A DNA stretch of 64,000 bases. Origin: Chloroflexota bacterium. Its GTDB lineage: Bacteria; Chloroflexota; Anaerolineae; Aggregatilineales; Phototrophicaceae. Under the pieces are notes generated by a model. The model ran no database searches and had not been told where the DNA came from. It saw only the letters and a list, made by a program, of their open reading frames with translations. The DNA is taken from assembly GCA_016223085.1 (NCBI GenBank), contig JACRPS010000016.1, forward strand, positions 1 through 64,000, given 5' to 3'. Positions 58,234 through 62,293 of the stretch are shown here, one piece after another. Position numbers and translations under genes: made by a program. Position 1 is the first letter of the stretch. Each line of letters opens with the position of its first letter.

Positions 58234-59565
58234 CTACCCCAACATCTCCTGCACTTTTGCGCCGACTTGGCCCCGGCTGACCGTCATTTCCGCGCCGTCG
58301 TTCAGGCGTTTGAGCTTCACCGCACCTGCTGCGATTTCCTCCGGCCCCAGCACCGCCACCAGCGGAATCCGCTTTTTGTCAGCGTAGTTAAACTGCTTGC
58401 CCAGGTTTTTGTCCTGCAAGTACAGTTCGGTGTTCACGCCCGCCGCTCGCAGTTCCGCTGCCAGCCGGGTGGAGTCGCGCCGCGTATCATCGTTAAACAC
58501 CGACACCAACACCTGCACCACCGTCCCCACGATGTCCGGCGGATACAGATTCAGGATGTCCATCAGGTCAATGATACGTTCAATACCCAGTGACGTGCCG
58601 GTCGTCGGCAGGCTTTCCTTGCGGAACAGGCCGACCAGATCATCGTAACGACCGCCGCCGGTCACGCTGCCCAGGTTCGGCTCGGTGATAACCGTCTCAA
58701 AAATCGGGCCGGTGTAATACCCCAGGCCGCGCACCATCGTAAAGTCAAACTCGTAAAACTGTGGCGGGATGTTCGCATCTGCCAAATGTCCGGCCAGTTC
58801 GCGCAGTTCGCGGATGCCCTCCTGCGCTGCCGGGAAGTTGCCCATCATTTCCTCGGCGTAATCCAGGCTTGACAGCCCCGGCTGCCGCGCCTGAATCAGC
58901 TCCATCATCCGGGCGACGGCCTCACTCTCAATACCGCGTTCCAGCAGTTCCTTCCGCACCCCGTCCGCGCCGATTTTGTCGAACTTGTCCACGCTGCGGT
59001 ACAGGTCGCCAAGCTGGTCGCGCGGCACGCCGGCATACTGGCCGATGGCCGTCAGCAGCTTGCGGTTGTTGATCTTCACGCTGAACTGCTGGAAGCCCAG
59101 CCGTCGCAGCGCCGTTACCACCACGCCCAGGATTTCGGCGTCGGCGCTCATGCTGGCGATGCCCACGATGTCGGCGTCACACTGGTAAAATTCGCGGTAG
59201 CGTCCGCGCTGGGGACGTTCGGCGCGCCACACGGGCGACAGTTGATAGCGTTTAAACGGCAGCGCGATCTCGTTTTCGTACAGCGCCACCACGCGCGACA
59301 GCGGCACAGTCAGGTCGTAGCGCAGCGCCACTTCTTCCTTGCCACCGGGGTGCTGGGCATGGTAAATCAGCTTTTCAGCATCCTCGCCATATTTGCCCAT
59401 CAGCGTTTCTTTCAGTTCCAGTACCGGCGTTTGCAGCGGCTCAAAGCCGTACAGGTGGAACACCTGGCGCACGATGTCAAACACGTACTCGCGCTTCAGC
59501 ATTTCGTTCGGCAGAAAATCGCGCATCCCCTTCGGCAAACGCGGCTTGATTTTGACGGCGGTCAT
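58234..59565 (-). CDS. hisS: Histidyl-tRNA synthetase
   Basis: Class II synthetase that charges tRNA-His, 443 residues. The start KIKPRLPKGMRDFLPNEML, motif 2 region KRYQLSPVWRAERPQRGRYR with EFYQCDADIVG, the histidine-specific loop VRGLGYYTGPIFE, and motif 3 LGSVTGGGRYDDLVGLF and TSLGIERIID identify it. The C-terminal anticodon domain begins near 335 (QVLVSVFNDDTRRDSTRLAA). The ATG at 59565 follows AGGAGG. The upstream region holds a histidine-rich leader peptide and a terminator (entries below), so expression seems to be controlled by attenuation. Confidence 0.97.
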   Translation of the reverse strand: MTAVKIKPRLPKGMRDFLPNEMLKREYVFDIVRQVFHLYGFEPLQTPVLELKETLMGKYGEDAEKLIYHAQHPGGKEEVALRYDLTVPLSRVVALYENEIALPFKRYQLSPVWRAERPQRGRYREFYQCDADIVGIASMSADAEILGVVVTALRRLGFQQFSVKINNRKLLTAIGQYAGVPRDQLGDLYRSVDKFDKIGADGVRKELLERGIESEAVARMMELIQARQPGLSSLDYAEEMMGNFPAAQEGIRELRELAGHLADANIPPQFYEFDFTMVRGLGYYTGPIFETVITEPNLGSVTGGGRYDDLVGLFRKESLPTTGTSLGIERIIDLMDILNLYPPDIVGTVVQVLVSVFNDDTRRDSTRLAAELRAAGVNTELYLQDKNLGKQFNYADKKRIPLVAVLGPEEIAAGAVKLKRLNDGAEMTVSRGQVGAKVQEMLG

Positions 59566-59590
59566 GGTTGGTCCTCCTACGAGCACTGGT

Positions 59591-59620
59591 GTAGGGGCGG
59601 GTTTCTAAACCCGCCCCTAC
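59591..59620. repeat. Palindromic intergenic repeat within the hisS leader
   Basis: 30-base perfect palindrome with arms GTAGGGGCGGGTTT and AAACCCGCCCCTAC, sited between the attenuator terminator and the hisS start codon. It will form a hairpin in the mRNA, but has no T tract. Confidence 0.93.
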
Positions 59621-59633
59621 GGCGGACAGACAA

Positions 59634-59662
59634 TAAAAAAGCGTGGACTGACGCCCACGCTC
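59634..59662 (-). terminator. Attenuator terminator in the hisS leader
   Basis: On the minus strand, stem AGCGTGG / CCACGCT (7 perfect pairs) with loop GCGTCAGT, followed by six T. It lies about 69 bases before the hisS start, so readthrough is required for expression. The 5' arm plus loop (GGGCGTCAG) is also complementary, with one bulged C, to CTGACCCC that follows the leader-peptide stop, giving the alternative antiterminator. Confidence 0.88.
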
Positions 59663-59688
59663 TCGGAATCCAAAACGGTCGGGGTCAG

Positions 59689-59733
59689 CTAACCACGCTC
59701 AACGATCGCATGATGATGGCGTTGCAGGTTCAT
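59689..59733 (-). CDS. hisS leader peptide with three consecutive histidines
   Basis: Fourteen-residue frame MNLQRHHHAIVERG ending TAG. GAGGAAAACA precedes the ATG. The His codons are residues 6-8. The stop is at 59689-59691, and the next bases (CTGACCCC) form the 5' half of an antiterminator. In the known his-operon scheme, slow decoding of His codons when charged tRNA-His is scarce leaves the ribosome at this point and lets the antiterminator form. Full translation covers it and lets the terminator form. I infer the same here. It is not homologous by name to a known leader. Confidence 0.8.
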   Translation of the reverse strand: MNLQRHHHAIVERG

Positions 59734-59756
59734 TGTTTTCCTCGCCGAATAATCGT

Positions 59757-59785
59757 AGTGTAGACGAAAATCTGGCAGATTGCAA
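59757..59785 (-). promoter_or_regulatory. Sigma70-type promoter of the hisS leader
   Basis: On the minus strand TTGCAA (59785-59780) and TACACT (59762-59757) with a 17-base spacer. A start near 59750 would give a leader of about 17 bases before the leader-peptide ATG, and an attenuated transcript of roughly 115 bases. Confidence 0.65.
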
Positions 59786-59891: not shown

Positions 59892-60335
59892 ATGTCTACC
59901 CGTACGATGCAGTCGCCCAATGCAGCCCTCAGCCGCCAGCTTGTCCGGGGCGCGGCTGCCGGTCTGGTCGGCGGCGTGGCCTTTGGCATCCTCATGACGA
60001 TCTGGGGCGTACTGCCAATGGTCGGCATGCTGGTCGGACAGGAAAACGCGGTTGTGGGGTTTGTCGTCCACCTGCTCATCAGCGCCTTCATCGGCGCAAC
60101 CTTTGGCGTGATCGCGGCACGCCTGCCTTCGACCTGGGTCTTGCAGATCGGCGCGGGCGCGGTCTATGGCGTCATCTGGTGGGTGCTGGGCGCGCTCGTC
60201 CTCATGCCGCTGCTGCTGGGTATGAATGAGATGGTGCTGCAAATCGGCGCGATGCAGGTCAACAGTCTGATCGGCCATCTGGTTTTTGGCGTGCTGACAG
60301 GCGTGGCGTACAAGGTGCTGAGTGAGCGCCGGTGA
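59892..60335 (+). CDS. Small polytopic membrane protein
   Basis: 147 residues with four membrane helices: GAAAGLVGGVAFGILMTIWG, GFVVHLLISAFIGATFGVIA, VLQIGAGAVYGVIWWVLGAL and NSLIGHLVFGVLTGVAYKVL. Gly/Ala-rich helices and a His in two of them (VVHLL, IGHLV) are notable. The family is not named with confidence, though similar proteins occur beside heme-copper or redox genes. The ATG follows GAAGGAGTAAGCAT, a strong site. The Crp-family gene follows 91 bases downstream and might be independent. Confidence 0.8.
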   Translation: MSTRTMQSPNAALSRQLVRGAAAGLVGGVAFGILMTIWGVLPMVGMLVGQENAVVGFVVHLLISAFIGATFGVIAARLPSTWVLQIGAGAVYGVIWWVLGALVLMPLLLGMNEMVLQIGAMQVNSLIGHLVFGVLTGVAYKVLSERR

Positions 60336-61539: not shown

Positions 61540-62145
61540 CTATCCTTCCAGCACCAGCGCTCTGGCTGCCAGCGCCTGCCGCGCCACCTCGCGGAACTGA
61601 TCGTGGTGATTGACTTCGTGCATCAGGCCGAACAGGAAGGCAGCGGGCGCGTTCATCGCCCCATGCCGTTCGATAAACCGTTCCGAAAGCTGGCGGAACA
61701 CGTGCAGGTGCGGCTCGTTCGGCCATGTATCCAGATACGCCAGCCGGATACGGCGGCTTTCTTCCAGCCGCTGCACGCACTGCGCTTTGGTCAGAATCGC
61801 GCGCCAGGGGGTTTCGTAGCGCAGGCGCGGTTCTGCCGGGTAGGTGATGCCACGCGCCAGCAGGGAACTGTAGGCCGCCCATTCTTCGCTGCTGGCCGTC
61901 ACGTGCGCCACCAGATGCGCGATATTCCAGCCGATCTTTTCCTCACCGGGGGCGGCATACGGGTCATGCGCGTGGGGGTCTACCGGGTCAAAAATTACAT
62001 CGGCATCGTTCAGACCGGAAACAATATCCAGAATGGTGTCTATTGAGTCGCTCGTCGCCGCGCGTAAATCATCCACCGAATAACGCGCCGACAGTTCCAG
62101 CAGCGTCAGTTTTCGTTCCTCAACCGGCTTATAATGAATTCGCAT
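61540..62145 (-). CDS. DinB-family protein
   Basis: Four-helix DinB-fold protein of 201 residues, family of putative metal-dependent transferases (thiol-S-transferase-like). Helix patterns: ELSARYSVDDLRAATSDSID, then GWNIAHLVAHVTASSEEWAA (His ligand near 86-90) and FGLMHEVNHHDQFREVARQ with His near 180-184. The three-His metal site is therefore visible. The ATG at 62145 (MRIHYKPVEERKL) follows AAGAGG and is used instead of the upstream in-frame ATG. Monocistronic. Confidence 0.85.
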   Translation of the reverse strand: MRIHYKPVEERKLTLLELSARYSVDDLRAATSDSIDTILDIVSGLNDADVIFDPVDPHAHDPYAAPGEEKIGWNIAHLVAHVTASSEEWAAYSSLLARGITYPAEPRLRYETPWRAILTKAQCVQRLEESRRIRLAYLDTWPNEPHLHVFRQLSERFIERHGAMNAPAAFLFGLMHEVNHHDQFREVARQALAARALVLEG

Positions 62146-62293
62146 CCTCTTGGCTCCCTCTATAAGAAACACATATGCAGAGAACGTTTTCATCCCTCAA
62201 TCCTTACGCGCCGATAGCAATGAACTTTGGTCTTTTACCGGGCGGGTGGTACACTCGGTAATTAAACCGGGATTCGATAAGGGGTACGTGCCA

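Follow-up and report, generated by a model that had tools for sequence, protein, structure and literature searches.

In the leader of the gamma-proteobacterial his operon (RF00514), a ribosome stalls on His codons, an antiterminator competes with a terminator, and biosynthesis is thereby controlled. Classical attenuation of a synthetase gene is represented by the pheST attenuator of gamma-proteobacteria. Leader attenuators were also predicted for leuS and trpS2 in Streptomyces (PMC1262725) and for the his operon in some Firmicutes (PMC9413887), and His leader peptides were predicted for the hisZ and hisS* paralogs of bacilli, together with a discussion of sensor switching on hisS (Naville & Gautheret 2010, PMC2965389). 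In Chloroflexi, mentioned as a poorly sampled group (PMC4833913), T-boxes are known (PMC2494555; PMC3766115). In the main text, "chloroflex" was not found in PMC2965389, and in PMC9413887 "hisS" was absent and "chloroflexi" occurred in the reference list only. In the literature covered, which lay mostly outside subscription journals, we recognised no report that describes attenuation by a leader peptide for Anaerolineae or for Chloroflexota at large.

Here we describe a short element upstream of hisS on the minus strand of the window, that is, the whole stretch of 64,000 nucleotides that was analysed. The best explanation of this element is a ribosome-mediated transcription attenuator that would make hisS expression depend on charged tRNA-His, and we assign to it, from sequence and folding models, a probability of roughly 0.93. 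Like the leaders of hisZ and hisS* in bacilli, it places a short ORF that has consecutive His codons, and then a terminator, ahead of a gene of the hisS family; those genes are duplicated paralogs of Firmicutes, whereas the present one scores as histidine--tRNA ligase and belongs to Anaerolineae, the likeness being drawn from the published description (PMC2965389). The window shares its attenuation logic with the RF00514 leader, but it would regulate a synthetase gene, is unmatched by the RF00514 model, and has an antiterminator strand that starts at the stop codon, 26 nt before the hairpin. The his attenuators predicted in some Firmicutes are alike in their His-rich leader, terminator, and antiterminator but precede biosynthetic operons (PMC9413887). 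The pheST, leuS, and trpS2 attenuators control synthetase genes, as would that of hisS, but concern other amino acids and phyla. T-box leaders (RF00230) have the same input (tRNA charging) and the same class of genes, but bind tRNA directly and contain no leader peptide. The mechanism was already known; the novelty, as far as searched, lies in the family, in its occurrence in this phylum, and in the compact layout. An earlier reading made from the sequence only (hereafter the sequence-only reading) had called the arrangement notable for this lineage; His leaders on hisS-family genes had already been predicted in bacilli.

The features are listed in Table 1. All parts that the sequence-only reading had named were present upstream of hisS on the minus strand: the promoter (TTGCAA, 17-base spacer, TACACT; read directly), the Shine-Dalgarno site, the 14-codon peptide with His-His-His, the segment after its stop, and the terminator with six T at 59662-59635 (sequence and folding). 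It had left unmentioned that GAGCGTGG repeats the 5' arm of the terminator and that a palindrome lies between the terminator and hisS; this palindrome has 103 copies in the genome at two mismatches or fewer, its own copy included. The gene was identified by an NCBIfam profile match at 388.6 bits, the cut-off of that profile (TIGR00442) being 286.75. Among named relatives of this hisS, the 13 best-ranked are MAGs that carry the labels Anaerolineae, Anaerolineaceae, Anaerolineales, or Chloroflexi, which places the lineage in Anaerolineae (Chloroflexota).

Table 1 Features of the hisS leader in the window and related loci outside it.
Feature	Position or locus	Strand	Basis or remark
Promoter: -35 TTGCAA 59785-59780, 17-base spacer, -10 TACACT 59762-59757	59757..59785	-	read directly
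Leader ORF MNLQRHHHAIVERG, ATG 59733, stop TAG 59691-59689	59689..59733	-	14 codons; purine-rich GCGAGG 5' of ORF
Three tandem His codons CAT CAT CAT, putative control codons and expected ribosome stall site	59710..59718	-	folding
GAGCGTGG at leader end, copy of terminator 5' arm	59693..59700	-	pairs with terminator 3' arm in predicted antiterminator state
Antiterminator 5' strand CTGACCCC, immediately 3' of stop codon	59681..59688	-	pairing and covariation, 33 genomes
Antiterminator 3' strand GGGCGTCAG, drawn from terminator 5' arm and loop	59648..59656	-	covariation, folding
Intrinsic terminator: 10-pair hairpin GAGCGTGGGCGTCAGTCCACGCTT 59662-59639 and six T 59640-59635	59635..59662	-	-17.0 kcal/mol
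Perfect palindrome GTAGGGGCGGGTTT..AAACCCGCCCCTAC, hisS 5' region	59591-59620	-	between terminator and hisS
Shine-Dalgarno region of hisS GTAGGAGGA	59572-59580	-	sequence
hisS, histidine--tRNA ligase, putatively controlled gene; ATG 59565	58234..59565	-	TIGR00442
tRNA-His gene before hisS	L210, L211, L217, L219, L222, L260, L264, L271, L273, L275, L276		families f15/f35/f49
Aromatic leader (...SYWYYYFSS...) and terminator	L157 (G000 contig C1), aroH at 1524	-	relatives L228-L257

In the proposed mechanism, transcription would begin about 7 nt past the -10 box and a ribosome would start the leader peptide. The signal would be tRNA charging: when His-tRNA is scarce, the ribosome would halt at the three His codons. 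The last stretch of the leader ORF, together with the eight post-stop bases, would then remain unoccupied and would base-pair with the arm and loop of the terminator as these emerge, and with this antiterminator formed the polymerase would continue into hisS. When His-tRNA is plentiful, the ribosome would reach the stop codon and cover the 5' strand of the antiterminator, the terminator would form in the cell, and the attenuated transcript would end after about 115 nt. Tandem cognate codons, an intrinsic terminator, and a conserved antiterminator that excludes it, three features expected of a leader-peptide attenuator, are found here (sequence and folding).

A search for hisS succeeded in 98 of 101 genomes, counting that of the window, and its upstream DNA was compared for 70 genomes, a number that includes one with zero upstream DNA (G006) and two with little (G008 and G017). 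A compact terminator within 330 nt of hisS was found in 36 of the 70 upstream regions. In 33 of these 36 genomes, a short ORF with HH or HxH ended 0-60 nt before the hairpin; His made up 103 of the 388 residues after the start codon in these 33 leaders, and the distance from stop to hairpin was 20 to 41 nt. Both the His codons and the exclusive pairing, for which the sequence-only reading had suggested a comparison with relatives, thus proved conserved (33 of 36 leaders, and covariation as given below). A copy of the terminator arm resembling GAGCGTGG was also visible in G005, G007, and G013. Among the three genomes without a detected leader, the G008 contig begins inside the element and its other contig shows MFVALVNHHHLNRFR, G014 has MLNITLNHPSHQARSV as read by eye, and no leader was found with the compact terminator of G044. 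In G021 and G041, which lack a compact terminator, His-rich short ORFs are still present 5' of hisS. In the 33 leaders, the window included, the best promoter match was exactly TTGCAA-17-TATACT or TTGCAA-17-TACACT in 16 and the pattern was unmatched in 5, counts that stand without a shuffled control. At two loci upstream of hisS, L013 (G001) and L031 (G047), the -10 box ends 8 to 10 nt before the leader start codon; given this short distance, the transcripts that encode these leader peptides may be leaderless.

Nascent-chain arrest peptides of the ligand-sensing type exist. If the leader were one of them and responded to free histidine, or to some other ligand, within the exit tunnel instead of to charged tRNA, ribosome stalling would leave the same RNA exposed. 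The residues flanking the His run vary among the leaders, however, the distance from the last His codon to the stop ranges from 2 to 8 codons, and the His residues are interrupted in some leaders (HPHH, HAHH). These properties fit codon-by-codon slowing better than peptide-specific arrest, and we hold the arrest peptide to be improbable.

The switch expected of a ribosome-mediated attenuator was reproduced by folding of the window RNA. With the A site on any His codon, the probability of the terminator was 0.00-0.01 when the footprint edge was set 9, 12, or 15 nt downstream, and with the ribosome at the stop codon it was at least 0.98; in these folds a ribosome on the His codons frees the antiterminator and one at the stop blocks it. 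At the shorter footprints the flip to the terminator came one to three codons past the last His, and with an edge of 18 nt the last His codon already gave 0.90. Five bases of GAGCGTGG were paired in the stalled fold; because GAGCGTGG copies the 5' arm of the terminator and pairs with the 3' arm, the stalled-state hairpin is longer than first described. The eight-pair antiterminator of the sequence-only reading was thus correct in excluding the terminator but too small, since the structure can take up both terminator arms. Its interpretation as attenuation is supported by the exclusive folds predicted in the window for a ribosome on the His codons and at the stop. The antiterminator also won in the ribosome-free transcript, and no hairpin that sequesters its strand without a ribosome was found in the window RNA, so that an untranslated leader should read through.

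Among the 33 leaders, a full equilibrium switch (terminator probability below 0.5 at some His codon and above 0.9 at the stop) was obtained for 15. In the remaining 18, the terminator was mostly favoured at equilibrium; the switch there would therefore have to be kinetic, with the antiterminator forming first during transcription. Freeing the linker stabilised the pre-terminator intermediate (mean 9.8 kcal/mol versus 6.9 kcal/mol with shuffled linkers; Wilcoxon p 1.5e-6), but in only 14 of the 33 leaders the stalled intermediate fell in the lowest tenth of its own shuffled-linker controls. In G038, the fold at the stop position with a 12-nt footprint did not favour the terminator. The 18 leaders that do not flip fully at equilibrium would be in line with some other regulation, by an RNA-binding protein, Rho, or mRNA stability, in which the His codons merely tune leader translation. 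Against this, ribosome position alone flips the window RNA, and inspection of the 33 aligned leaders by eye revealed no conserved block besides the His codons and the two hairpins; we give quite little credence to such regulation.

Pairing was evaluated in an alignment of the 33 leaders (A1). The terminator was paired in 96.6% of cells, with changes on both sides in 6 of its 10 pairs and a covariation score of 0.341 versus 0.229 in shuffled alignments (0 of 500 as high). The antiterminator core, defined as eight pairs, was paired in 77.6% of cells; 31 cells were changed on both sides versus 13.8 in shuffles, and its covariation score was 0.399 versus 0.242 (0 of 500 shuffles as high), with at most 0.147 for six slid versions. 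Two other counts did not exceed the shuffles: antiterminator pairs changed on both sides numbered 6 and additional pair types 15, values reached by 266 and 168 of 500 shuffles, respectively. The mean energy of the antiterminator duplex was -15.5 kcal/mol with own partners versus -12.6 kcal/mol (sd 0.47) with permuted ones, and none of 20000 permutations was as good. The exchange of bases is visible in single groups: the commonest combination pairs loop CGTTGG with CCAACG after the stop, G052 carries loop GGCCGTTC and post-stop GAACGG, and the window's group (G000, G005, G007, and G013) has loop GTCAG with post-stop CTGAC. In G019, G069, G070, G081, and G090, own pairing was no better than the swapped mean, the two being nearly equal in G019 and G081.

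Covariation between the post-stop strand and the loop also bears on a simpler explanation, namely that the hairpin simply serves as terminator for a gene further upstream, with the short ORF arising by chance. Compact intergenic terminators are common, one of them lying between a subtilase gene and aspS in the same genome, and a poly-Ser ORF before a terminator on the serS side proved to be the end of the upstream gene and was discarded as a candidate leader. At hisS, however, the nearest gene-like ORF 5' of the leader (59892-60335, plus strand; no NCBIfam family match) points the opposite way and carries a GGAG of its own; the terminator is therefore not that gene's and would act on a transcript starting in the gap. 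Moreover, the runs are specific to His: in the pre-terminator short ORFs of the 36 genomes, runs of two identical residues were found for His in 32, Ser in 8, Arg in 7, Leu in 6, and any other amino acid in at most 5, and runs of three for His in 20 and any other amino acid in at most 3. With the divergent ORF, the His leaders, and the covariation, the upstream-gene explanation is scarcely credible and was rejected; a chance origin of the arrangement of leader and terminator is very unlikely from the sequences compared. Control of hisS by a T-box, which the T-boxes elsewhere in the same genome might suggest, has a negligible probability and was likewise rejected, since RF00230 had no match at hisS in gathering or permissive scans, as the sequence-only reading had said of T-box motifs, and the same library finds the T-box of valS. 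No Rfam family, including His_leader (RF00514) and T-box, matched the hisS leader at the gathering score, and when about 3 kb around it was scanned permissively, the single match was at chance level and belonged to neither.

The valS T-box (L200 1614-1831, G000) scored 108.3 bits against a gathering score of 93, and a further T-box match, 5' of pheS (L206 920-1251, minus strand, G000), reached 62.1 bits (E 3.5e-12), which is below gathering. The valS T-box and the hisS leader in one genome indicate that the two systems coexist. A second leader of the peptide type precedes aroH-aroF, which encode chorismate mutase and DAHP synthase (NCBIfam): leader MNALAPRSYWYYYFSSHIEASGALRAGQVKVR is followed by a terminator. 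aroH was present in 55 of the 61 genomes searched, and an ORF with an aromatic run (Tyr, Phe, or Trp) and then a terminator preceded aroH at 28 of 30 relatives' loci (only aromatic residues were counted). When 24 of the 30 loci were folded, the mean terminator probability was 0.49 on the aromatic run and 0.97 at the stop, and the stalled intermediate beat at least 95% of the shuffled linkers in 11 of 24. These sequences make it likely that the aroH-aroF leader is a second leader-peptide attenuator. In addition, a Met-rich ORF, MNTKRLFFTLGMMSMRDPRRDGRRALCHA, follows a TATACT box and precedes a terminator about 290 to 130 nt 5' of a metS-like gene at 2113 of L202 (G000 contig C10), and is possibly a Met leader of that gene as judged from its sequence. 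The scan for other synthetases covered 13 stretches and the aspS and aroH loci by script and by eye, with synthetase names uncertain and a gene start in L204 that looked wrong. A hisS-like gene beside hisG in the same genome, putatively hisZ, had no terminator in the region before it.

The distribution of the hisS element was examined with a covariance model (R1) built from the 33 leaders, the His-codon columns included. At E<=0.001, R1 matched 49 places in 47 of the 154 genomes of the order; by our own count, 32 of these were model sequences and 17 lay outside the model, and 15 of the 17 were 5' of hisS on its strand. The 17 places are not fully independent: two are one sequence on two G008 contigs, one comes from G017, a genome with two similar copies of which the other is in the model, and some belong to genera that are represented in the model. 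Among the 15 is the place in G071, whose hisS is just 35% identical to that of the window. The remaining two of the 17 were at a contig end (G341) and before an arsC-like gene with hisS absent from the 1.8 kb fetched (L327, G340). A His-rich short ORF was present in 12 of 12 fetched non-model places, a property that follows in part from how the model was made. In the window's genome, R1 gave one strong match, at hisS, and five weak ones: the terminator between the subtilase gene and aspS (E=0.047), a match on contig C1 that is antisense to the aroH transcript and led to the aromatic leader, and three others in which no His leader with a terminator was seen by eye (ORFs were listed for one). 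A class-wide search at E<=0.01 matched 11 of 249 genomes, of which 6 were convincing and all in the same order (G000, G007, G030, G047, G063, and G062). The other five (G304, G259, G238, G177, and G117; E 4e-4 to 6e-3) were attributed to chance, there being no His ORF followed by a terminator in the middle 500 nt of each locus, a scan that may miss matches near contig ends and for which ORFs were listed in two.

An arsC-like phosphatase gene 5' of hisS was preceded by the element at L165 (G062), L187 (G098), L329 (G344), and L186 (G080), and in G080 a hydrolase gene was present there as well; the arsC-like and hydrolase names were given by reading the protein sequences. Three of these genomes (G062, G080, and G098) belong to the 34 of 70 upstream regions without a compact terminator near hisS. 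A deeper look upstream in 29 genomes had added G080, G098, and G035 (the last outside the 70), and G062 was found by the model search. In G075, the element was absent from 1.8 kb 5' of hisS and from a further 2.7-kb stretch. In several attenuator-less genomes, the gene directly 5' of hisS is a look-alike of the gene at 61540-62193 (minus strand) of the window, which is DinB-like by eye and had no NCBIfam family above cut-off.

In the wider class, hisS was found at E<=1e-80 in 75 of 249 genomes; upstream DNA was taken for 60, 12 had been seen before, and G073, G078, and G310 were left out. By script, a His leader followed by a terminator was found among the 60 in 4 of 6 genomes of family f50, 2 of 12 of f11, 1 of 2 of f15 (weak, with a GTG start), and 0 of 40 of the other families. 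A tRNA-His gene within 600 nt 5' of hisS was present in 2 of 2 genomes of f15, 3 of 3 of f35, and 6 of 6 of f49, and in 0 of 49 others. For the His leaders of f50 and f11 (7 loci given, 6 analysed), equilibrium folds gave the terminator at both ribosome positions. With odds a little better than even for all of its parts together, leader-peptide attenuation may be a general regulatory layer of Anaerolineae, with hisS control rebuilt repeatedly in the class. This joint reading would comprise at least two independent sensors, one of His for hisS and one rich in Tyr and Phe for aroH-aroF, perhaps with one of Met for metS, beside T-boxes in one genome; a compact His leader in the window's order and a differently built one in f50; a tRNA-His gene in three more families; and an attenuator now placed on an arsC-like gene with or without hisS.

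The ribosome-mediated attenuator of hisS would place classical amino-acid attenuation in Chloroflexota and offers one well-resolved family for study. Its compactness (a transcript of about 115 nt) and the predicted flip right after the His codons make it suited to reporter tests. Two further arrangements came out of the same searches, namely the aromatic leader ahead of DAHP synthase and an operon whose phosphatase-like gene would come under the control of the hisS element. Since valS uses a T-box in the same genome, the lineage allows one to ask why synthetases differ in being governed by a ribosome sensor or by a tRNA-binding RNA.
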